In this document: one piece after another, positions 12,368 through 25,053 of the stretch
Layout: each line of letters begins with the position of its first letter
How positions within the stretch are numbered: the first letter of the stretch is position 1
DNA from: Geobacteraceae bacterium
Lineage (GTDB): Bacteria > Desulfobacterota > Desulfuromonadia > Geobacterales > Geobacteraceae
DNA: 34,676 bases
Reading direction: 5' to 3'
Assembly: GCA_017861285.1 (NCBI GenBank)
Contig: JAGFXO010000004.1
Coordinates: forward strand, 1-34,676
Made by a program: the position numbers and the translations under genes
Notes under the pieces: model-generated
Told to the model about the DNA's origin: nothing
The model's database searches: none
The model's input: only the letters and a program-made list of their open reading frames with translations

Positions 12368-14062
12368 ATGAGTCTTGTCGGTAATCTCGAAGATCTTGGT
12401 CTCGGTGAAATCCTGCAGATAGTGAGTCTCAGCAGGAAATCCGGTTCTCTCTCCCTCTACAGCAGGGGGCGTGAGGGGAAGATCGTTTTCCGCCATGGGC
12501 AGGTTGTCCGTGCTTCTTCCAGCTGCTTTCAGCAAAACCTGGGAGAAATCCTGGTTCAAAAAGGGATTATTGATGTACATTCCTTGAAAAAGGCGGTGGC
12601 CATCCAGCAGCAGTTGAACTGCAAGGAACGGCTCGGCTCGATATTCACCAGGCAGTTCAACATTCCCCATGATGTTATTGAGGATGTGGTCCGGGAACAG
12701 ATCGAGAAGGTGGTCTATTCGCTTTTCGCGTGGGCGGAAGGTACTTTCGATTTCGAACTTCAGGATAATGATGACAATCTCGATGTAACCCACCTGGATC
12801 CGATGCAATTCAGGCTGGAGCAGGGCCTGAATCCACAGTTCCTTGCCATAGAGGGTTCCAGGATTATCGATGAAATGAGGCATCGCGGCGAGCTTGACGC
12901 AGAAGGGGCGCCTGATGCGCTTGAAGCCGATGACTGCAGCTCTGAAGCGAATATCGATCTCGCTTTTGATCTCCTGCAGCAGCAGGAAGCTCCGGAGCCG
13001 CCGGCTCCCGAAGTGGAGCTGGGTGTCGTTGTGGTGGATGACGATTCCCTTACGAGGGAGGTTCTCGAACGGCTCCTCTCCGGTGAAGGATATGCGGTCT
13101 CTTCCTTTGAAAAAAGCGAAGATGCGCTGATATATATCGACACCCTGTATCGTGCCGGCAAACGGCCGTCCATGCTCATCGACCTGATCATGCCGAGAAT
13201 GGACGGTTCGGGAATCCTGGGGGGACTGGAACTGCTGGAGCTCGTCCAGACCAATTTCGGCGACCTGCATGTTCTCGTCATGGCGGACTACAATAATACC
13301 GATGCGGAGCGGACAGTCAGGCAAATGGGGTATCCTTTCCTGATCAAGCCGCGCAAATCGAATTTCACGGATACCGGTGCAACGAATGAGTTCGGCCGCA
13401 ACCTCCTCGCAAAGCTGAAAAGTTTCCATGTCGGTTCTGCCCCCGGAAGTTCCGGAGACACAATTAATCTTGGCGATGAATTGCGCCTTGAAATGGGCGA
13501 GGAAATGGCCCCGGCCCCCGAACCTGACGGCCGGAGCACCGGCATCAGCCTCCTGCGCGGAATCCTGGAAGAACTGAATAATCCCTCGCTCGGAGGGGGG
13601 ATTATTCTCCTGGTGCTTCGCTTCGCCTCCGAATTCATGAACCGTGCAGTCATATTTACTGTAAAGCGCGGTCTGGTAGTCGGACTGGGTCAATTCGGCA
13701 TCGTCGATATTGCGGGGAAAGCAGATGCGAAGGTCAGAAACATCCGTATTCCGGTAGACGAGGACTCCCTGTTCCGGCAGGTCCTTGATGGTCATATGGC
13801 TGTCAAGGCCGTGCCTGACGGATCGTCCTGGAACGGATATCTGTTCGACCAACTCGGTGAAGGAGTTCCCGGCGAGTTTTTCCTCGCCCCGATTATCAGT
13901 GAAGGCAAGGTTGTGGCCCTTTTATACGGGGATAATCTGCCGGAGAACAGGAAGATAGGGGATACCGATTCTCTTGAAATCTTTATCTCACAGGCTGGCA
14001 TGGCTATGGAAAGAGCTCTTCTGCAACGCAAACTCAATGAGAAAAGTCTGGAGGGGGCGTGA
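12368..14062 (+). CDS. PATAN/DUF4388-receiver-GAF-like regulator
   Basis: This 564-aa cytoplasmic protein opens the cluster. Residues 1-115 are a DUF4388/PATAN domain (GNLEDLGLGEILQIVSLSRKSG type), followed by a helical part to about 170 and an acidic linker. A receiver domain follows at about 218-350: acidic triad DDD 224-226, phosphoacceptor D272 in LIDLIMPRMDG, and Lys327. The usual Thr/Ser is replaced (Met305 or its neighbour), so the phosphorylation switch may be atypical. The last 170 residues look like a GAF-type fold. PATAN-receiver proteins in cyanobacteria act as output regulators of type IV pili; that role here is inference. The stop overlaps the next gene as GTGA. Confidence 0.8.
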   Translation: MSLVGNLEDLGLGEILQIVSLSRKSGSLSLYSRGREGKIVFRHGQVVRASSSCFQQNLGEILVQKGIIDVHSLKKAVAIQQQLNCKERLGSIFTRQFNIPHDVIEDVVREQIEKVVYSLFAWAEGTFDFELQDNDDNLDVTHLDPMQFRLEQGLNPQFLAIEGSRIIDEMRHRGELDAEGAPDALEADDCSSEANIDLAFDLLQQQEAPEPPAPEVELGVVVVDDDSLTREVLERLLSGEGYAVSSFEKSEDALIYIDTLYRAGKRPSMLIDLIMPRMDGSGILGGLELLELVQTNFGDLHVLVMADYNNTDAERTVRQMGYPFLIKPRKSNFTDTGATNEFGRNLLAKLKSFHVGSAPGSSGDTINLGDELRLEMGEEMAPAPEPDGRSTGISLLRGILEELNNPSLGGGIILLVLRFASEFMNRAVIFTVKRGLVVGLGQFGIVDIAGKADAKVRNIRIPVDEDSLFRQVLDGHMAVKAVPDGSSWNGYLFDQLGEGVPGEFFLAPIISEGKVVALLYGDNLPENRKIGDTDSLEIFISQAGMAMERALLQRKLNEKSLEGA

Positions 14063-14424
14063 AAACGATCCTGATAACCGAAGACTCTCCAACTACGCGT
14101 TCAATGCTTGCGTCGACAATCGAATCCCTGGAAGGTTACCAGATTATCGAGGCTGCCAGCGGTTTTGAAGCGTTGCGCCTGTTGCCGCGTGAGAGGGTCG
14201 ACCTGATCATAACCGATATCAATATGCCCGATATAAACGGGCTGGAATTGATCAGCTTTGTCAAAAACAATCCTAATTACAGTTTGATACCGCTCTTTAT
14301 CATTTCTACGGAGAGCGGTGAAAAAGACCTGGAAAGGGGGCTTTCGCTGGGGGCAGACGAGTACCTGGTGAAGCCCTTCAAACCCGAACAGCTTCTCGAG
14401 CTTATACGCAGATACCTTGGATAG
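14059..14424 (+). CDS. Stand-alone CheY-like response regulator
   Basis: This 121-aa single receiver domain has all phosphorylation residues: E8/D9, phosphoacceptor D53 in TDINMPDINGLE, Ser83/Thr84, and K105 in LVKPF. No output domain is attached, so it probably acts by protein binding after phosphotransfer from the CheA encoded next. The GTG start overlaps the preceding stop, with GGAGGGGG upstream. It is closely similar in sequence to the second CheY at 24676-25053, suggesting duplication within the cluster. Confidence 0.92.
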   Translation: MKTILITEDSPTTRSMLASTIESLEGYQIIEAASGFEALRLLPRERVDLIITDINMPDINGLELISFVKNNPNYSLIPLFIISTESGEKDLERGLSLGADEYLVKPFKPEQLLELIRRYLG

Positions 14425-14497: not shown

Positions 14498-16549
14498 ATG
14501 ACCTTGACAGACAACCCCTCAAGTAAGGCGCTCAAGGATTTTCTCGCTGAGAGCGAGGAGATTATCAACCAGTTGAGCCTGGATCTGATAACCCTTAGCG
14601 ATTCAGCGGAGAGGGGCGAGTGCGATCCGGATGTGGTCAATTCAATTTTCCGCAGCGCCCATTCGCTGAAGGGCCTTGCTGGAATGTTCGGGTTTGCCGA
14701 TATTGCGGAGCTTGCCCATAATCTTGAAAATCTGCTCGATCGCCTCCGGCTCGGCAAAATTCCCATCAATCATTTAACGACAAGCATACTTTTCGACTCC
14801 ATGGAGCTCCTCGGTGCCCTGGTGCGTTCGGCCGGAACTGACGGTTCCAAGCCGGCCGACATATCGGCTGCAGTGGAGAGGATCAATGCCTGTATCAATA
14901 CCCCCGGGGATGGTTCGGGAACAGCGTCGATTGAAAGCCTGGGACTTCCGGAGAAGGTACTCCATGCGCTTACCGAGTATGAAGAGCACAGGTTGCGGGA
15001 GAATTTACTAAAAGGCCGCAGCATCTACTCCATTTCTGTTTCATATGGTCTGGACACGTTTGACCGCGAGTTGGGAGCGCTCTTCGATGCCCTGAAAAAG
15101 GGGGGTGAAGTAATCAGCACGCTGCCGAGTTCGTCCGGGGATATGGAAACATCCATATCCTTTGAAATTTTGTTCGGATCGTCCCATGAAACAAGCGCTG
15201 TTAGCCTAATCTGCAATAATGCGGATATCGTTATAACCCGGCTTGGCCCTCATGTGAATGAGGGACTGCCTTCCTGCCATACGCTTCAGTCCGCTGCACT
15301 TTCCGTGAAGGTGTCCCCGGGCAATTCTTCCCCCATCGACGAACCGGTCCTGACCGCCAAGAGTCTCAGCCGTTCCATGCGTGTCGATATGGGCAAACTC
15401 GACGAACTCATGAATATCGTCGGAGAATTGATCCTGTCGCATTCAACGATAGCCGACCTTTCCGCCCGTTTACGCAGTCATGGGTTTTCCGGGTTGGCGA
15501 TGGAATTGACAAAGGCAGCCAAAGGTCTGGAAAGAAAGCTGAACGAATTGCAGAAGGGGGTTATGGAGATCCGGATGACTCCCGTCGGGCAGCTGTTCGA
15601 AAAGATGGCCCGAATTGTGCGGAAGATATCCATGGATCAGGGGAAAAAGGTCGAGCTGAAGATTTTCGGTGCAGATACTGAACTGGACAAGGTGATTATC
15701 GAAGACATATCAGATCCGCTCATGCATATCATTCGAAACTCCATCGATCACGGGATAGAAACTCCCGAAGAGCGGGTCCGGCAGGGAAAGAGCGAATCGG
15801 GCGTCATACGGCTCTCTTCGTATCAGAAGGGGAACCATGTTGTCATAGAAGTTGAAGATGACGGTAAGGGGATAGATATCGAGAAGGTGAAGCGAAAGGC
15901 GGTCGAGGCGGGTTATGTCGGGGAAGGCGGGGATCTCTCCGACAAGGAGGCAATTGATCTTCTCTTCCTGCCCGGCCTTTCCACCGCGGAGCAGGTGAGC
16001 GAAGTATCCGGTCGCGGCGTAGGCATGGATGTCGTGAGAAATAACATCCAGGCCCTTTCCGGGATGGTCGATATTGAAAGCGAAGCCGGCCGTGGTACCC
16101 GGGTCGTCATTACCCTTCCCATTACCCTTGCCATTATCAAGGTGCTGCTTATTTCAGCGTCAGGGCGCTCCTATGCCGTTCCCATAACCTCTGTGCAGGA
16201 GACGCTCTCTCTCGAAAGCAGGCATATTATTACTGTCGAGAGGAAGGAGGTCATGCGGCTTCGCGACATGACTCTGCCGCTGCTGCGCCTTTCCAGGTTT
16301 TTCGGTGCCGATGACAGTTCCGGGTCCATGGACTGTTACTATGTGATCGTGGTCGGCCTGGCGGAGAAACGTGTCGGGATACTGGTGGATGATCTGCTCG
16401 GGCAGCAGGACATTGTCATCAAGCCCCTTGGCGATACATTCAAAGGTGTACGGGGTGTTTCGGGGGCTGCCGACCTGGGTGACCAGCGAACCATTCTTGT
16501 GCTGGATACCGGTGGAATAATCAGCGAGGCAGTGAGGAACGGAGCATAG
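14498..16549 (+). CDS. cheA: Chemotaxis-type histidine kinase CheA
   Basis: This 683-aa hybrid-free CheA has an HPt domain with phosphorylated H55 in AHSLKG, then a middle region (about 150-280) that does not match the classical CheY-binding P2 by eye. Dimerisation helices start at about 295 (MGKLDELMNIVGEL). The ATPase domain has the N box HIIRNSIDHG (410-419), G1 DDGKG (454-458) and G2 GRGVGMD (505-511). A CheW-like coupling domain ends the protein (about 545-680). It phosphorylates the cluster's CheY proteins and CheB. It begins 73 bases after cheY, which leaves room for a small hairpin (14438-14454), and ends one base before the ATPase gene. Confidence 0.95.
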   Translation: MTLTDNPSSKALKDFLAESEEIINQLSLDLITLSDSAERGECDPDVVNSIFRSAHSLKGLAGMFGFADIAELAHNLENLLDRLRLGKIPINHLTTSILFDSMELLGALVRSAGTDGSKPADISAAVERINACINTPGDGSGTASIESLGLPEKVLHALTEYEEHRLRENLLKGRSIYSISVSYGLDTFDRELGALFDALKKGGEVISTLPSSSGDMETSISFEILFGSSHETSAVSLICNNADIVITRLGPHVNEGLPSCHTLQSAALSVKVSPGNSSPIDEPVLTAKSLSRSMRVDMGKLDELMNIVGELILSHSTIADLSARLRSHGFSGLAMELTKAAKGLERKLNELQKGVMEIRMTPVGQLFEKMARIVRKISMDQGKKVELKIFGADTELDKVIIEDISDPLMHIIRNSIDHGIETPEERVRQGKSESGVIRLSSYQKGNHVVIEVEDDGKGIDIEKVKRKAVEAGYVGEGGDLSDKEAIDLLFLPGLSTAEQVSEVSGRGVGMDVVRNNIQALSGMVDIESEAGRGTRVVITLPITLAIIKVLLISASGRSYAVPITSVQETLSLESRHIITVERKEVMRLRDMTLPLLRLSRFFGADDSSGSMDCYYVIVVGLAEKRVGILVDDLLGQQDIVIKPLGDTFKGVRGVSGAADLGDQRTILVLDTGGIISEAVRNGA

Positions 16550-16550
16550 C

Positions 16551-17363
16551 ATGTTCAGAAGGTTCTACGGCCTCCGGGAGAAGCCTTTCAGCAAAACGCC
16601 GGATCCGCGTTTCCTCTACTTGAGTCGCGGGCACCAGGAGGCCCTTGCCAGGCTCCAGTATGCCGTCGAAGAGCGTGAACTTGCCTTGCTGACCGGCGAA
16701 ATCGGGAGTGGCAAGACTACTATCTCCAGGGCTTTGATGGATTCACTCGATGACTCCTGCCGTTTCTGTTTCGTATTCAACCCGGTCCTCTCTCCCCTCG
16801 AGTTCATGAGAGTCGTCGCGAGGGGCCTGGGAATAGAAAATCCAGCCGGAGACAAGGATAATCTTCTGTATGAGATAACAGGGGAACTGTACAGGGTTCA
16901 CAATCAGGGGGGGTGCCCGGTTGTCGTGATAGATGAAGCCCAGTTGATACCGGGAAGGGAAATGCTTGATGAGATACGGTTGTTGACCAATTTTCAACTC
17001 GATGACAACAATCTCCTCTGCATCATTATCATGGGGCAGCCGGAGTTGCGGAAAAAACTCATCGACCCCGTATTTGAGCCTTTGCTCCAGCGGATCGGGG
17101 TCCAATATCATCTGCAGCCCCTCGGCCTGGAAGAGACGATGGAATATATCGATTTCCGGCTGATGGTAGCAGGGGGGAAACCGGGCCTTTTTTCTCCGGA
17201 GGCTGTCCAGATGATTTTCGAACTTTCCGGCGGGGTACCGAGACGCATCAATGCCATTGCGACAACGGCCCTTCTGGTAGGATACGGAAGAGATACCGCC
17301 TGGATAGATGACGAGATGATCGAAGAGGCCGGTAGAGAACTGGCTATCCGGGGGTTACCATGA
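16551..17363 (+). CDS. ExeA/GspA-type AAA ATPase
   Basis: This 270-aa soluble ATPase has the hallmark N terminus FYGLREKPFSKTPDPRFLY, Walker A GEIGSGKTT (49-57), Walker B VVVIDEAQ (124-131) and the sensor segment IIIMGQPELRKKL. This is the ATPase module of ExeA/GspA (type II secretion assembly), also used in exopolysaccharide and transposition (TniB) systems. No membrane segment and no peptidoglycan-binding or SPOR domain follows, so it is the bare ATPase. The ATG lies one base after the cheA stop, with GGAGC upstream, and the end overlaps cheW by four bases. Co-translation with CheA and CheW ties it to the signalling complex. Its role there is unknown. Confidence 0.88.
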   Translation: MFRRFYGLREKPFSKTPDPRFLYLSRGHQEALARLQYAVEERELALLTGEIGSGKTTISRALMDSLDDSCRFCFVFNPVLSPLEFMRVVARGLGIENPAGDKDNLLYEITGELYRVHNQGGCPVVVIDEAQLIPGREMLDEIRLLTNFQLDDNNLLCIIIMGQPELRKKLIDPVFEPLLQRIGVQYHLQPLGLEETMEYIDFRLMVAGGKPGLFSPEAVQMIFELSGGVPRRINAIATTALLVGYGRDTAWIDDEMIEEAGRELAIRGLP

Positions 17364-18615: not shown

Positions 18616-18656
18616 CTGATTCGATGTCGGTAATTCCCGAACCGGAGAGGATTTGT

Positions 18657-19637
18657 ATGCTTGTCGGTTGCCCGAAATGCAGAACGAAATACAGAGTCAG
18701 CCATGAAAAGCCCGGAAATGAACAGGTAGTGCTCAGATGCATCAAGTGCCACTGCCTGTTCCGCGTGGCAGGCAGGCCCTGTTCTTTGCCTGCAGCAACG
18801 GATGGCGACGGCCGTTCGAAACGCAGGATCAGAGTAGTTGTGGCAAACGAAAGCAATGTTTTCTGCCAGGCGGTGGCGAAGGTGCTTTCGTCGGAACCCA
18901 TTGATGTTTTTACGTTCAATGACGGCAAGTCGGCCCTGGCGGCGATTGAAAGAATGATCCCCGATGTGGTGCTCCTCGATGTTGCTCTCCCGCTGATGTA
19001 TGGTTTCGAGGTCTGCGATGCGATAAGAAAAAACCCGGCTGCGGCATCGGTGAGGATCATCCTGATAGCTGCCATTTATGACAAGACACGGTATAAAAGG
19101 GAACCGAATTCGCTGTACGGGGCTGACGATTATATCGAAAAACATCATATCCCCGACTTTCTTGCCTCGAAGATCTATCAGCTTGTTTCCGGGGACAGAC
19201 GATTTGATGGTTCGGATAATGCATGCCTTCCCGGGGAAGATGCTCCCCAGCAGTTTGCGCAGCAACTTTCCGCCGGGGAAATGGCCGAACTGAAAAGCAC
19301 ACGTATGACGATCCGGCATGATGAAGAGCGGGTGACCGTGGCGAAAGCCGACCGGGGAGACAGCGAGGCACACGTAAAAGCAAGGCGGCTTGCCCGGCTG
19401 ATCGTGTCCGACATTGCCCTTTACAATCAGGAATATGTGGAAGAAGGGGTGCTGAATGATACTTTCTATAAACTCCTCGAAGTAGATGTCCGGGACGGGA
19501 GGTCTCTGTATGAAGGGCGCATCCCCGTGGAAGTAAGGAATGGCACGTCCTATCTGGATGATGCTTTTGAAGAACTGATTGCGCAAAAGAAGCGGGAATT
19601 GAATATTCTCAAAGAACCGGGAGTTGGTAGTGTATAA
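18657..19637 (+). CDS. Zinc-ribbon/degenerate receiver/unknown C-terminal domain protein
   Basis: This 326-aa protein starts with an MJ0042-type zinc ribbon (Cys5, 8, 28, 31). A receiver domain follows at about 57-180. The phosphoacceptor D108 is present (LLDVALP), but the acidic pair is Asn64-Glu65 and the Thr/Ser position is Ala138, with K162 in an unusual EKHH context. Phosphorylation may therefore be weak or absent. The last 75 residues (ARRLARLIVSDIALYNQEY onward) form a compact charged helical domain I cannot name; similar tails are known to me from other deltaproteobacterial regulators. The start is set by GGAGAGG six bases before the ATG; an earlier ATG at 18624 lacks this. It overlaps the HEAT gene by eight bases. 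Confidence 0.78.
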   Translation: MLVGCPKCRTKYRVSHEKPGNEQVVLRCIKCHCLFRVAGRPCSLPAATDGDGRSKRRIRVVVANESNVFCQAVAKVLSSEPIDVFTFNDGKSALAAIERMIPDVVLLDVALPLMYGFEVCDAIRKNPAAASVRIILIAAIYDKTRYKREPNSLYGADDYIEKHHIPDFLASKIYQLVSGDRRFDGSDNACLPGEDAPQQFAQQLSAGEMAELKSTRMTIRHDEERVTVAKADRGDSEAHVKARRLARLIVSDIALYNQEYVEEGVLNDTFYKLLEVDVRDGRSLYEGRIPVEVRNGTSYLDDAFEELIAQKKRELNILKEPGVGSV

Positions 19638-21633
19638 GCTGCAAAACCTGAAAGACGCCCTTTTTTCGCCTGATGAGGAAACACGCAGGCTTGCGGTAAT
19701 CGGTCTGTCCGAATATCCTATTGCGAAGACAAAGGGATCTCTTTTCCAGGCACTCGGAGATGCGAGTTGGCGTGTTCGCAAGGAGGCGGTCGAATTGCTC
19801 TCCCGAATTGACTTTTCTCCCGGAATGACGGAAGAACTGGTCACGTTGCTCAGATCCCAGGATAATGCAGGGATGCGCAATGCCGCGGTGGAGGTGCTGG
19901 TGAGGTTGGGTGAGAAGGCCGTTCCGGTGCTTCATCCTTACGTGAAAGATGCTGATCATGATGTGCGTAAATTCATTATTGACATCATGGGAAGTATTGG
20001 CAATGCTTCTTTCGTTCCCCTCCTGATCGATGCTCTCGATGACCCGGATGCGAATGTCAGCGTGGCAGCGGTCGAAAATCTCGGGAAGATCGGGGATCAT
20101 AGAGCAGTTGACCCCCTGTTGAACTTGCTGGATAAACCCGATGTCTGGCTGCAGTACGCCATTCTCGAAGCGCTGGGAAGGATTGCCGTTCCGGTGCAGG
20201 TTTCAGCAATAGCCCCGCTTGCAGCCCATGGCCTGTTAAAAAAAGCTGCGTATGAGTGCCTGGGGGCGGTCGGCGGGATTGAAGCAGTTCCCATCCTGCT
20301 GTCCGGTCTGGGGGAAAAGGCGAAGAATGCGCGCCGGGCCGCTGCTTTTGCACTGGATAAGATCCGTGACACGATGCCTGCCCGCATAGCCGAGGAGGCC
20401 GTTGATCCGGGATTGCGCGAACTGCAAGGTACTCCGGTGGTGGAACTGCTGCTGGAATGCCTGTCCACACCGGACACAGCGGTGCGAAAGGCTGTGGTGA
20501 AGATTCTCGGGGTAATTGGGGATAAAAGAGCTGCCGGAGAGCTTTTGCGGGGGTGCGGTGATTATCGCCTACGCAGTTGCTGTCTCCAGGCTTTTCAAGC
20601 CATGGGGGAGATCATTACTCCCTTTCTGGAAAAAGAATATTATGACGCCGATGAGGGAGAGCGCTGCATTATTACCTATCTGTGTGGTGAGATGGGCCTG
20701 CAGGGCTGTACTTCGCTCCTTGCGCAGGGAATGCTCGATGCTTTGCCTGCTGTCCGCAAAGAGGCCGTGGTCGCATGCGGCAAACTGGGCCTGGTCGATT
20801 TCATACCCGACATTATCGATCTGCTCGACGATTTCGACGAAGATGTGAGGGAGGGCGCTGTCGTTGCCCTTGCACGTCTGGCCGAGTTGGACAAGGAGGC
20901 CGTTGAAGGGGTGGCCGAGGTGCTCGCCTTTGACAAAGACCCTGAAAAGAGACGTGATGCCGCACATTTGTTTGGGGCATTGAAAGATACTGAAAGGTTG
21001 TCGCTCCTGATGAAGGATGAGGACGTCACTGTCCGGAAGACTGCAGTCAGCACGCTTGCAGACCTGAAAAACAAGGCAAGCACGGGCCATCTGCTGATGG
21101 CACTGGTTGATGAAGACCCCGAGGTCCGCATCTCCGCCGCCCTGGCTCTCGGCGAGACCGCGGGCGCCGATGCCGTGGATTCGCTGCTCCTGCTTCTGAA
21201 AGACGAAAACCCGTGGGTCCGGTGCGCCGCACTGAAAAGTCTCGGAAAACTCAAAGGCCGGAAAGCTCTTCATGCCGTAGAGACAATACTTGAAAATGCT
21301 GAAGGGGCGGTCATGATTGCCGCAATCGAAGCCCTTGGCGAAATGGGTGGCGGCAGAGCCCAGGGTCTCCTGGAAAGGGCGCTGAGAAACGAAGATGAAG
21401 AGGTGGTAAAGACCGCTATGAGTCTGCTTGCCCGGAATGGGGAGCAATGGCTTGGAAAATACAGGGAAGCCCTGATTCTTCACCCGAACTGGGGTGTCAG
21501 AAATCACTTTGTCAAGCTGATGGCTGATCTGATGGGTAAAGAGGCTGGGCCGTATCTCAGGAAGGCGCTTGAAAGGGAAGTTGATGATCTGGTCAAAGGG
21601 CAGATAAGAGATCTGCTGGAAAGATACGAATGA
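19630..21633 (+). CDS. Large HEAT-repeat protein
   Basis: This 667-aa protein is built almost wholly of HEAT-like helical repeats of about 30 residues (pattern D..VR..A...LG..G). It has no enzymatic motif, signal peptide or membrane segment. Such superhelical solenoids act as protein-binding scaffolds. The GTG start overlaps the preceding gene by eight bases and has GGGAG upstream. The end overlaps cheR as ATGA. Being translated between the zinc-ribbon receiver and CheR suggests it holds or localises the signalling complex, which is inference. Relation to phycobilin lyases (which also use HEAT repeats) is unlikely given the context. Confidence 0.88.
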   Translation: MYKLQNLKDALFSPDEETRRLAVIGLSEYPIAKTKGSLFQALGDASWRVRKEAVELLSRIDFSPGMTEELVTLLRSQDNAGMRNAAVEVLVRLGEKAVPVLHPYVKDADHDVRKFIIDIMGSIGNASFVPLLIDALDDPDANVSVAAVENLGKIGDHRAVDPLLNLLDKPDVWLQYAILEALGRIAVPVQVSAIAPLAAHGLLKKAAYECLGAVGGIEAVPILLSGLGEKAKNARRAAAFALDKIRDTMPARIAEEAVDPGLRELQGTPVVELLLECLSTPDTAVRKAVVKILGVIGDKRAAGELLRGCGDYRLRSCCLQAFQAMGEIITPFLEKEYYDADEGERCIITYLCGEMGLQGCTSLLAQGMLDALPAVRKEAVVACGKLGLVDFIPDIIDLLDDFDEDVREGAVVALARLAELDKEAVEGVAEVLAFDKDPEKRRDAAHLFGALKDTERLSLLMKDEDVTVRKTAVSTLADLKNKASTGHLLMALVDEDPEVRISAALALGETAGADAVDSLLLLLKDENPWVRCAALKSLGKLKGRKALHAVETILENAEGAVMIAAIEALGEMGGGRAQGLLERALRNEDEEVVKTAMSLLARNGEQWLGKYREALILHPNWGVRNHFVKLMADLMGKEAGPYLRKALEREVDDLVKGQIRDLLERYE

Positions 21634-22511
21634 TTTTTAGCGCGGAATCTGAAATCTCGATGTCAGATGAGGAATTCCGGCTCATAAGGGATCTCATTCA
21701 CTCCCATTGCGGGATTTTCTTTGATCATGACACGAAATACCTGCTGGAGAAAAGGCTGTGCAAGAGGCTTGCTCTCCTGCGGATTGGAAGTTTCAGGGAA
21801 TATTACCATTTTTTGAAATACAACAGGGGCAGTGATCATGAACTTTCCGACCTCATGGATGTCCTCACCACGAATGAAACCTATTTCTTTCGGGAATCCT
21901 TTCAGCTCAAGGCATTCACGGATGAGATTATACCGGAAATAAAGGCGCGCAAGGAGAAAATCGGGGATCGGGAACTGCGTATATGGAGTGCCGGGTGTTC
22001 CACCGGCGAAGAGCCATACACGATTGCAATGCTTCTTCTCGATATGCAGTGCTTCAACGACTGGAGAATCGAGATTGTCGGCACCGATATCAGCCACAGG
22101 GTTTTGCACCATGCGCGAAAAGCCGTTTACGGAAGGTCTTCCTTCAGAACTACCCAGAGCTACCATGTCAGGCGCTATTTTACGGAACAGGATGAATGCT
22201 TCCGGATTGCCGATCAGGTAAAGCGGCTGGTTACAGTCAGTCACCTGAACCTTTTCGATGAAAACCGCGTTGTTCTCCTCGGGAAAATGGATGTTATTTT
22301 CTGCCGTAACGTGATTATCTATTTTGACCAGATTGCAAAAAAGAGGGTTGTGGAGACATTCTATAAGACACTACGTGAAGGAGGGTATCTTTTGCTCGGG
22401 CATGCCGAATCGCTGCTGAATACATCAACAGCATTTGCGCTCCGCCATCTGAAGAACGATATGGTGTACCAGAGACCATACACCGGCGAAAAATCCGGGA
22501 GTCGCTTGTGA
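21630..22511 (+). CDS. cheR: Chemoreceptor glutamate methyltransferase CheR
   Basis: This 293-aa SAM-dependent methyltransferase modifies receptor glutamates during adaptation. The N-terminal helical domain contains NETYFFRE (82-89). SAM-binding motif [11 protein letters not shown] is at 120-130, GTDIS at 151-155 and [10 protein letters not shown] at 224-233. No TPR domain or CheR-binding pentapeptide adaptor is fused. The ATG overlaps the HEAT stop. An internal ATG at 21660 is possible but has a weaker ribosome site. Its presence implies methyl-accepting receptors exist, yet none is in the window. Confidence 0.95.
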
Positions 22512-23581
22512 GGAAGATTCGTGTTGTAGTCATTGACGATTCAGCCTACAATCGCAGGGCCATTACCAGAATGCTGGAAAGTCTTCCCGAGATTGAGGTC
22601 GCGGGTTACGCGGTCGACGGCGAAGAAGGTATCCGTGCCATCCTGGATCTGAAACCCGATCTGGTCACACTGGATATCGAAATGCCGAAGATGGACGGCT
22701 TTACCCTCCTGCGCATAATCATGAGCCGCTGTCCCACGCCCGTGATAGTTGTCAGTTCCAAGGGGGGGGATGACCGGGTTTTCAAGGCTATGGAGCTGGG
22801 GGCACTGGACTTCATCGTCAAGCCGACCACGGGTATATCCGACGAGCTTCTGAATATCCGGGAAAGCCTCCATGAAAAGGTCCGAAGCGTTCTGAAACTC
22901 AATATGGCCGGCATCAGGATGAGGGAGTCCCTCATAGCCGAGGGAATGTTCGCCGGAAAAAAGAAAAGGGTTCCACCGTTGCCGGATACATCCCGCGCAA
23001 CGGGCATACGCTTAATAGCCATAGGGTCTTCCACGGGAGGTCCCCCGGCCCTGCAGAGCATCTTTTCCTCTTTCAATGAAAAACCCCCGTTCTCGGTTGT
23101 CGTCAGCCAGCATATGCCACCGGGGTTTACCCGGACCTTTGCCGAAAGGTTGAACAGGTTGTCAGTTTTCGACATAAAGGAGGCCGGGAATGGTGATCTG
23201 CTTGAGCCTGGAAAGGTCCTTGTCGCGCCGGGAGGCCGCAACATGATTTTCCATGCCTTGGCGGACCAGGTGGCGGTGAGGATTGTCGACCCTGAGCCGG
23301 GCGAAAACTATATTCCCTCTGTTGACAGGATGTTCTCCTCCTGTTCGGAGATATTCGGTCCCCATCTTCTGGGAATTGTGCTTACCGGCATGGGAAATGA
23401 CGGGGCCAGGGGGGTCAGGGCGATAAAGGCCGCGGGAGGCCAGGTGCTGGCAGAATCGGAAGATTCAGCCGTCATTTTCGGTATGCCGAGGGAAGCGATT
23501 GCCACGGGAGCAGTGGATAAGGTCATATCCCTTGACAGGATAGCCGATGAGATCATGATGCGCTGCGGAATTTATAGTTAA
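22508..23581 (+). CDS. cheB: Chemoreceptor methylesterase/deamidase CheB
   Basis: This 357-aa two-domain response regulator has an N-terminal receiver with D10/D11, phosphoacceptor D56, Ser83 and K105. After a linker comes the methylesterase domain with catalytic Ser175 (GSSTGG), His202 (QHMPPGF) and Asp298 (GNDGARG). Phosphorylated by CheA, it demethylates receptors and opposes CheR. The GTG start overlaps the cheR stop (GTGA) with GGGAG upstream. A run of eight G at 22762-22769 lies in the receiver-coding part. Last gene of the tightly overlapping run; a 155-base gap follows. Confidence 0.95.
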
Positions 23582-23736: not shown

Positions 23737-24561
23737 ATGTCGACAGAAGAAGAGAAGGCAGTTTCCAGCAGGGCCGAAGAGTTCATGCAGGTCTTCAAAA
23801 AGGGGGCTGAGTTTACCCAGGAGCTGTTGAAAGAGAATGAGCGGCTCCGTTACCAGGTGATTCAGCTGCAGGAAAAATTGCGTGTCGATCCTGAACCGGT
23901 TTTATCTTCAACAGAAGACATCCAGCTGCGGGAGCGGATTGCGGAGCTGGAGAGGGAGAAGGAGGAGATACTCAACCGGATCAGGCAGGTTGAGAAGGAG
24001 AACCAGGACTTTGCGGCACGCTACGTCGAGATAGAGACGGAGAACAATAACCTGGCCAATCTCTATATTGCCAGCTACCAGCTCCACTCGACACTCGATT
24101 TCAAGGAAGTCCTGCAGATCATTATCGAGATTATTATAAATCTTATCGGAGCGGAAGAGTTTGCCATACTGCTTCTTGATGAGAAGACCAGCGAACTGAC
24201 GGCCGTTGCCACCGAAGGAGTCTCCCGCGAGGAGATTCCCGCAGTGAGGTATGGCAAAGGGATAATCGGTACTGTCGCCAAGACGGGTGAAAATTATTTT
24301 ATTGATGATATCTCCACTTACAAGCGCGATTTTCTAAGCCCGATGGTGTGTATCCCCCTGAAAATAAAAGATCATGTAATCGGGGTCATTGTCATTTATG
24401 CCTTGCTGCTCCAGAAGAAAAGCTTTGCCGAACTTGACTACGAACTCTTCACACTGCTGGCGGGGCATTCCGCTACGGCAATTTTCAGTTCCAAGCTCTA
24501 TTCCGAATCGGAACGCAAGCTTTCGACAATACAGGGGTTCATTGACTTGCTGATCAAGTGA
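23737..24561 (+). CDS. Coiled-coil/GAF domain protein
   Basis: This 274-aa cytoplasmic protein begins with a long heptad-rich coiled coil (about residues 15-112) and continues into a GAF domain (about 118-268) with the family's IIGTVAKTGE and FLSPMVCIPL segments. No kinase, cyclase or DNA-binding domain is attached, so it is a sensor or dimerising adaptor rather than an enzyme. The ligand is unknown. The start ATG has CAGGAG upstream. It stands between cheB and the second cheY, so it may report to the same pathway. Confidence 0.85.
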   Translation: MSTEEEKAVSSRAEEFMQVFKKGAEFTQELLKENERLRYQVIQLQEKLRVDPEPVLSSTEDIQLRERIAELEREKEEILNRIRQVEKENQDFAARYVEIETENNNLANLYIASYQLHSTLDFKEVLQIIIEIIINLIGAEEFAILLLDEKTSELTAVATEGVSREEIPAVRYGKGIIGTVAKTGENYFIDDISTYKRDFLSPMVCIPLKIKDHVIGVIVIYALLLQKKSFAELDYELFTLLAGHSATAIFSSKLYSESERKLSTIQGFIDLLIK

Positions 24562-24639: not shown

Positions 24640-24675
24640 CCGGCTGTCTGCAACATTTTGGGAGGGTATATTGAA

Positions 24676-25053
24676 ATGCCGGAACACAAGATACTGATAA
24701 TTGAAGATTCCCCGACAATGCGGCAACTGATCTGCTTTGCCCTCAAAAGACTTCCGGGAGTCCGGATTGTTGAGGCGAGCGATGGTGTTGACGGGTTGAA
24801 GAAGTTATCCGCCGACAAATTCGATCTCATCCTGACCGATATAAATATGCCGATTATGGATGGCCTCAAACTGGTCAGTCTTGTTCGTAATGATGCAAAT
24901 TACAAGGATACGCCGATCGTCATGATCACTACGGAAGGCGCGCAGGAAGACAGGGAAAGGGCTATCGCCCTTGGGGCCAACGATTATATAACCAAGCCGA
25001 TCCAGGCCGGCAGGATCCTCGATATGGCGAAAGCTATGCTGAAGAAACCGTGA
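24676..25053 (+). CDS. Second stand-alone CheY-like response regulator
   Basis: This 125-aa receiver domain has every phosphorylation residue: E10/D11, D55 in TDINMPIMDGLK, Thr85/Thr86 and K107 in ITKPI. The start is the ATG giving MPEHKILI, with GGGAGGG about nine bases upstream; a TTG six codons earlier lies inside that ribosome site. It closely resembles the cheY at 14059-14424 (shared EDSPT, TDINMP, LGA). It probably competes for the same CheA phosphate, as output or as a phosphate sink. leuS follows after 95 bases. Confidence 0.92.
   Translation: MPEHKILIIEDSPTMRQLICFALKRLPGVRIVEASDGVDGLKKLSADKFDLILTDINMPIMDGLKLVSLVRNDANYKDTPIVMITTEGAQEDRERAIALGANDYITKPIQAGRILDMAKAMLKKP

Follow-up and report, generated by a model that had tools for sequence, protein, structure and literature searches.

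A conserved AAA+ ATPase encoded between CheA and CheW as a candidate output-side component of a beta-group (Esn) chemosensory system

The AAA+ ATPase encoded between CheA and CheW in a Geobacteraceae chemosensory operon is, in our preferred though still tentative reading, a dedicated, soluble and probably active part of the beta-group/Esn system, a system probably associated with receptors of the 40H class, and it may work on the output side, toward c-di-GMP and exopolysaccharide. The operon lies in a 34,676-nucleotide stretch of contig JAGFXO010000004.1 (the window; Table 1) and is the known beta-group/Esn cluster, since it encodes CheA, CheW, CheR and CheB in the absence of a local MCP, the combination by which such clusters are recognised. 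Its counterpart in Geobacter sulfurreducens is cluster 5 (EsnB, GSU2220; EsnC, GSU2222), for which the published annotation gives the same CheA-ATPase-CheW order and which has a biofilm and electrode output (PMC2577667, PMC5585712). Going by this annotation and by gene order, rather than by alignment, the window ATPase is likely to be the orthologue of GSU2221.

The ATPase gene is open from ATG to TGA, and its product matches the Pfam family AAA_22 (PF13401) at 80.7 bits, against a cut-off of 27. As initially annotated, the cheA gene stops one base ahead of the ATPase start codon, and the end of the ATPase gene shares four bases with the start of cheW1; both details proved exact in a reading-frame check, which showed that cheA ends in TAG and that the shared bases are ATGA. 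The initial annotation took them to mean that synthesis of the ATPase is locked to that of the core signalling complex. The CheA side is in keeping with this, as 74 of the 80 loci found by ATPase sequence have a spacing between -11 and +18 bases there; the CheW side is not, since the spacing ranges from -1 to +202 bases (n = 50) and the genes overlap only once. Because the one spacing is tight and the other loose, the CheA-ATPase link can be regarded as conserved and the cheW overlap as a local detail. A special coupling through the four-base overlap was rejected, as this overlap is not conserved across loci and such overlaps are common within the window's Che operon.

Table 1. Features of the chemosensory operon in the window
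Feature	Coordinates	Strand	Basis
DUF4388 - receiver - GAF-like protein, first Che gene	12368..14062	+	domain search
CheY1, stand-alone receiver	14059..14424	+	domain search
CheA (EsnC-type), 683 aa, conserved P2-like region ~residues 156-215	14498..16549	+	
Che-linked AAA+ ATPase, 270 aa	16551..17363	+	GSU2221 family by synteny; AF2 pLDDT 91.6
CheW1, 241 aa	17360..18085	+	domain search
CheW2, 177 aa	18082..18615	+	domain search
Zinc ribbon - receiver protein	18624..19637	+	domain search
HEAT-repeat protein, 669 aa	19624..21633	+	domain search
CheR	21630..22511	+	domain search
CheB	22508..23581	+	domain search
Coiled-coil/GAF-like protein, kept in many homologous clusters	23737..24561	+	
CheY2, start within ORF uncertain	24658..25053	+	

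The operon is compact, with leuS following CheY2 at its end. The window CheA carries the Pfam domains Hpt, H-kinase_dim, HATPase_c and CheW, and its P2-like region (LTEYEEHRL...GEVISTLP), which lies between P1 and P3, is strongly conserved. The DUF4388 protein of the window contains an MshE-type c-di-GMP motif at 28 bits, below the NCBI cut-off of 38; homologues in two Nitrospirota ATPase operons score above it (49.5 bits for L102:5753-6982 and 44.4 bits for L111:2684-3853). The same two loci encode receptors (L102:11709-14573 and L111:10344-13142) in which the MCP signalling domain is followed, on its C-terminal side, by a phosphonate-type periplasmic-binding domain; this order is unusual. 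In many relatives (among L033-L112), cheW1 and cheW2 are separated by an additional gene for a stand-alone receiver, which is absent in the window.

The CheA-ATPase-CheW arrangement is not a product of chance. An orthologue of the ATPase at 59-71% identity occurs in most of 58 related genomes, the other relatives listed in those genomes all being at or below 44% identity, and the order CheA-ATPase-CheW1 was found in all of the first 29 loci (29/29). When an ATPase-only alignment was run independently against 84,980 species genomes, 80 loci were returned, each of them (80/80) with CheA immediately before the ATPase and CheW after it. Among them are two records with Nitrospirae in the title and one with Acidobacteriota, and distant ATPase loci of three phyla show the same order where they are readable. 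In loci with a full-length CheA, the identity of the ATPase to its window homologue equals or exceeds that of CheA, and it is clearly greater than that of CheW1.

In samples of whole phyla scored at E <= 1e-85, the family was detected in 26 of 395 genomes of the window's own phylum, in 22 of 297 drawn from the phylum to which the Acidobacteriota record belongs and in 47 of 198 from that of the Nitrospirota record, the weakest matches being three non-Che relatives and one divergent Che member. Within the window's class, scored at 1e-90, the family is present in 111 of 146 genomes. This CheA occurs in 116 genomes of the class, 110 genomes have both proteins, and one has the ATPase only, with its match 513 bases from a contig end. 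For Nitrospirota, 46 genomes have both and 19 have CheA only; the one ATPase-only case is also near a contig end, and its truncated CheA is visible in the locus (L143). Fisher values for this co-occurrence serve as description alone, because of the shared ancestry of the genomes. Because the ATPase is accompanied by CheA in 110/111 and 46/47 genomes, and CheA often stands alone, the dependence is one-way: the ATPase needs this CheA, while CheA often occurs without the ATPase.

Che-linked ATPases form one clade (SH-aLRT 96) against the paralogues of their own order, and this clade spans Thermodesulfobacteriota, Nitrospirota and Acidobacteriota, which points to a single old family that accompanies this kinase in each of three phyla. 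The nearest non-Che relatives (L160-L162 and L182) are stand-alone ATPases. Those of L160-L162 resemble the Che-linked proteins in standing alone and in size (264-267 aa), but they adjoin OPX/Wzz/Wzy or low-molecular-weight phosphatase genes, with no Che genes found; polysaccharide loci (OPX/Wzz/Wzy) house two of the three nearest. The Walker A motif (G49-T57), the Walker B residues D128 and E129, R143, Q180, R181 and R231 are common to the paralogues, and 95% or more of 154 homologues keep K55, D128, E129, R143, R181 and R231; Che-specific positions include D64, Q149, L150, N154 and A237. As far as can be judged from these residues and from the lack of membrane segments, the ATPase is probably soluble and catalytically active.

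The ExeA/GspA label of the initial annotation fits in part. The AAA_22 domain is shared, and the window ATPase is ~41% identical to the ExeA-like paralogue of its own genome; yet the Che-linked proteins form a separate clade, have neither a transmembrane segment nor PG_binding_1 nor an ExeB/GspB-like neighbour, and adjoin CheA and CheW in all 80 loci. The accompanying statement that the protein has no membrane or peptidoglycan-binding domain was borne out, since none was found and the Kyte-Doolittle maximum is 1.38. The window genome itself encodes, at L163, an ExeA-type protein that carries PG_binding_1; at L164 it has a 389-aa ATPase, the neighbours of which, judged by sequence in place of a domain scan, are O-acyltransferase- and flippase-like. 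The XrtA/PEP-CTERM-associated ATPase (TIGR03015) was also considered, and the match spans the full length; it was rejected with 226.8 bits against a curated cut-off of 324.5 and no exosortase locus.

Repeated absence of the ATPase is informative as to which side of the system it serves. On the CheA tree, its presence and absence cost eight changes by parsimony, at least six of them forced by well-supported branches; CheA and CheW persist across the ATPase-less lineages, and CheR and CheB do so in several. Within the genus of the window, the gene was lost rather than never gained. A genome of this genus (G001; L113, G001:C83:70000-89000) has open frames for the DUF4388 receiver protein, CheA, CheW1, CheW2, CheR and CheB, and between CheA and CheW1 it retains a mere remnant, IFRRFHGLREKPF, to be compared with MFRRFYGLREKPF in the window ATPase, with the start codon altered. 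This deletion scar excludes, for that lineage only, a history of multiple gains rather than losses. A further remnant upstream of CheA, LLELIRRYP, resembles the end of CheY1; CheY1 is lost too, as are the zinc ribbon-receiver and HEAT proteins and CheY2, so the loss of the ATPase is not isolated there. The G001 cluster has shrunk by several separate deletions. Another genome, G950, has no ATPase and keeps CheY, HEAT, CheR and CheB. Values of dN/dS between two genomes of the genus were mostly saturated, with ~0.10 obtained for one neighbouring gene only.

Nine ATPase-less rows from Nitrospirota form one clade on the CheA tree, and in five of these loci (L186-L189, L192) the slot between CheA and CheW1 is occupied by a REC-GGDEF protein of the diguanylate-cyclase type. 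No GGDEF frame was found in the slot in any of 97 ATPase-bearing loci (0/97), three of which have such a frame at another place within the stretch retrieved. Other ATPase-less Nitrospirota slots contain a MerR-like helix-turn-helix frame, judged from the translation only (L191, L193, L195, L197), or nothing recognised.

Published phenotypes place the system, and perhaps the ATPase with it, in biofilm formation. The cluster corresponds to what Tran et al. (2008) describe as the beta group, for which unpublished results cited there indicate regulation of the extracellular matrix (PMC2577667). In a Tn-Seq study of electrode growth, three neighbouring genes all proved important; the log2 values were -2.1 for GSU2221, listed as 'ATPase', -2.4 for the CheW GSU2220 and -2.8 for the CheA GSU2222 (Chan et al., 2017; PMC5585712). 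The authors argue that polarity was alleviated in their library, and they deleted CheA and CheW, not the ATPase (PMC5585712); the GSU2221 value by itself is compatible with residual polarity on CheW. A c-di-GMP synthase, EsnD, acts in the same Esn network (PMC6456294, PMC8835794). The role of the ATPase is essentially unstudied: the literature found, with subscription journals mostly outside the search, holds no functional study and no scarless GSU2221 deletion, and GSU2221 appears in published work as 'ATPase' with a Tn-Seq value.

A comparison with Myxococcus xanthus is also instructive. Its Che7 and Che8 systems share the CheY-CheA-CheW-CheR-CheB content and 40H receptors, all MCPs of this species being 40H except DifA and McpK. 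Unlike in the window, the locus tags of CheA and CheW are consecutive (6964-6963 and 4758-4757), hence no ATPase gene lies between them, as can be deduced from the table in that work (PMC3945109). An Mcp40H-20 sensor receptor is encoded inside the Nitrospirota operon L102.

Taken together, the tight coupling to CheA, the one-way dependence, the retention of the CheA-CheW core without the ATPase, the diguanylate-cyclase-type protein in the slot of a sister clade and the kinase-like Tn-Seq value argue that the ATPase works between CheA and the output. We suggest that CheA or its phosphorylated partners may recruit the ATPase, whose ATP use would drive the switching or remodelling of a target; this target would in turn relay the signal to c-di-GMP-dependent biofilm or exopolysaccharide behaviour. 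The MshE-type motif in the two Nitrospirota operons, the action of EsnD in the Esn network and the polysaccharide loci of the nearest non-Che relatives also speak for this reading. Against this reading, some ATPase-positive loci have no local HEAT and zinc ribbon-receiver genes, and one is also without a recognised CheY1, so that no fixed output partner emerges.

The main rival, which we consider rather unlikely, is a role on the kinase side: the ATPase would contact CheA, either at P5 or in the P2-like region, or else CheA together with CheW, and would use ATP as an adaptor or to regulate the activity of the kinase. The tight CheA-ATPase and loose ATPase-CheW spacing would suit this role as well, and so would a Tn-Seq value for GSU2221 similar to those of CheA and CheW. 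In addition, near-invariant columns of the P2-like region of CheA are lost about twice as often in ATPase-less as in held-out ATPase-bearing lineages (0.093 versus 0.045), with a loss ratio of 1.3 for P5 and of about 1 or less for the other CheA domains. The P2-like effect, however, is a weak signal of ~1.7 SD on which we do not lean, confounded with CheY1 loss in some of the same lineages, and CheA remains intact after the ATPase is lost.

Known array positioners, namely ParC, ParP and PpfA, link an NTPase to a chemosensory system. The initial annotation proposed that the ATPase could likewise position the array, or else remodel or recruit it. Remodelling or recruitment in a broad sense may still apply; a positioning or assembly factor functionally like ParC or PpfA is disfavoured and, in our view, improbable. 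The ATPase is dedicated to one chemosensory system, and its confident AlphaFold2 model has a soluble AAA+ fold near those of the ring and filament formers MuB, TnsC and Orc1/Cdc6 in Foldseek and VIA searches (8xvc: Z 20.6, rmsd 3.2, 231 aligned; 7plh: Z 19.6, rmsd 3.5, 240 aligned; 1fnn: Z 20.8, rmsd 3.7, 253 aligned), a resemblance that identifies fold, not function; a sequence search of the PDB gave just two marginal P-loop matches. Set against this are the forced state changes with CheA and CheW kept, and in several cases CheR and CheB too, the G001 scar and the REC-GGDEF protein in the slot. As the annotation had recognised, the family also differs from the ParA-like superfamily of ParC, ParP and PpfA: a ParA/MinD type was rejected, as the ATPase has a classical GxxGxGKT in place of a deviant Walker A and an AAA+ fold with a C-terminal helical part. 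Binding to DNA or the nucleoid is unlikely because the homologues are acidic, with averages of 5.4 for pI and -8.6 for net charge over 154 proteins. A similarly doubtful proposition is that the ATPase acts directly on envelope machinery, either exopolysaccharide export or pili, as its relatives do, and is only co-expressed with the Che genes: the sister clade sits mostly in polysaccharide-export loci, ExeA relatives assemble secretins (PMC4098917) and the beta-group cluster is said to regulate the extracellular matrix, but the ATPase is without a membrane part and essentially never occurs without this CheA.

Chemosensory systems are known to signal through response regulators, diguanylate cyclases and regulators of a similar kind. 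It is tempting to speculate, although we think this probably goes too far, that here a chemosensory kinase passes its signal on to an AAA+ machine, such that an ATPase derived from polysaccharide export would have become a CheA-bound output motor across three phyla, evolutionarily interchangeable with a diguanylate cyclase. The ATPase is widespread and conserved at least as well as the neighbouring kinase, and the electrode-biofilm phenotype in G. sulfurreducens is still unexplained. With a dedicated AAA+ ATPase, the chemosensory repertoire would gain a new type of component.
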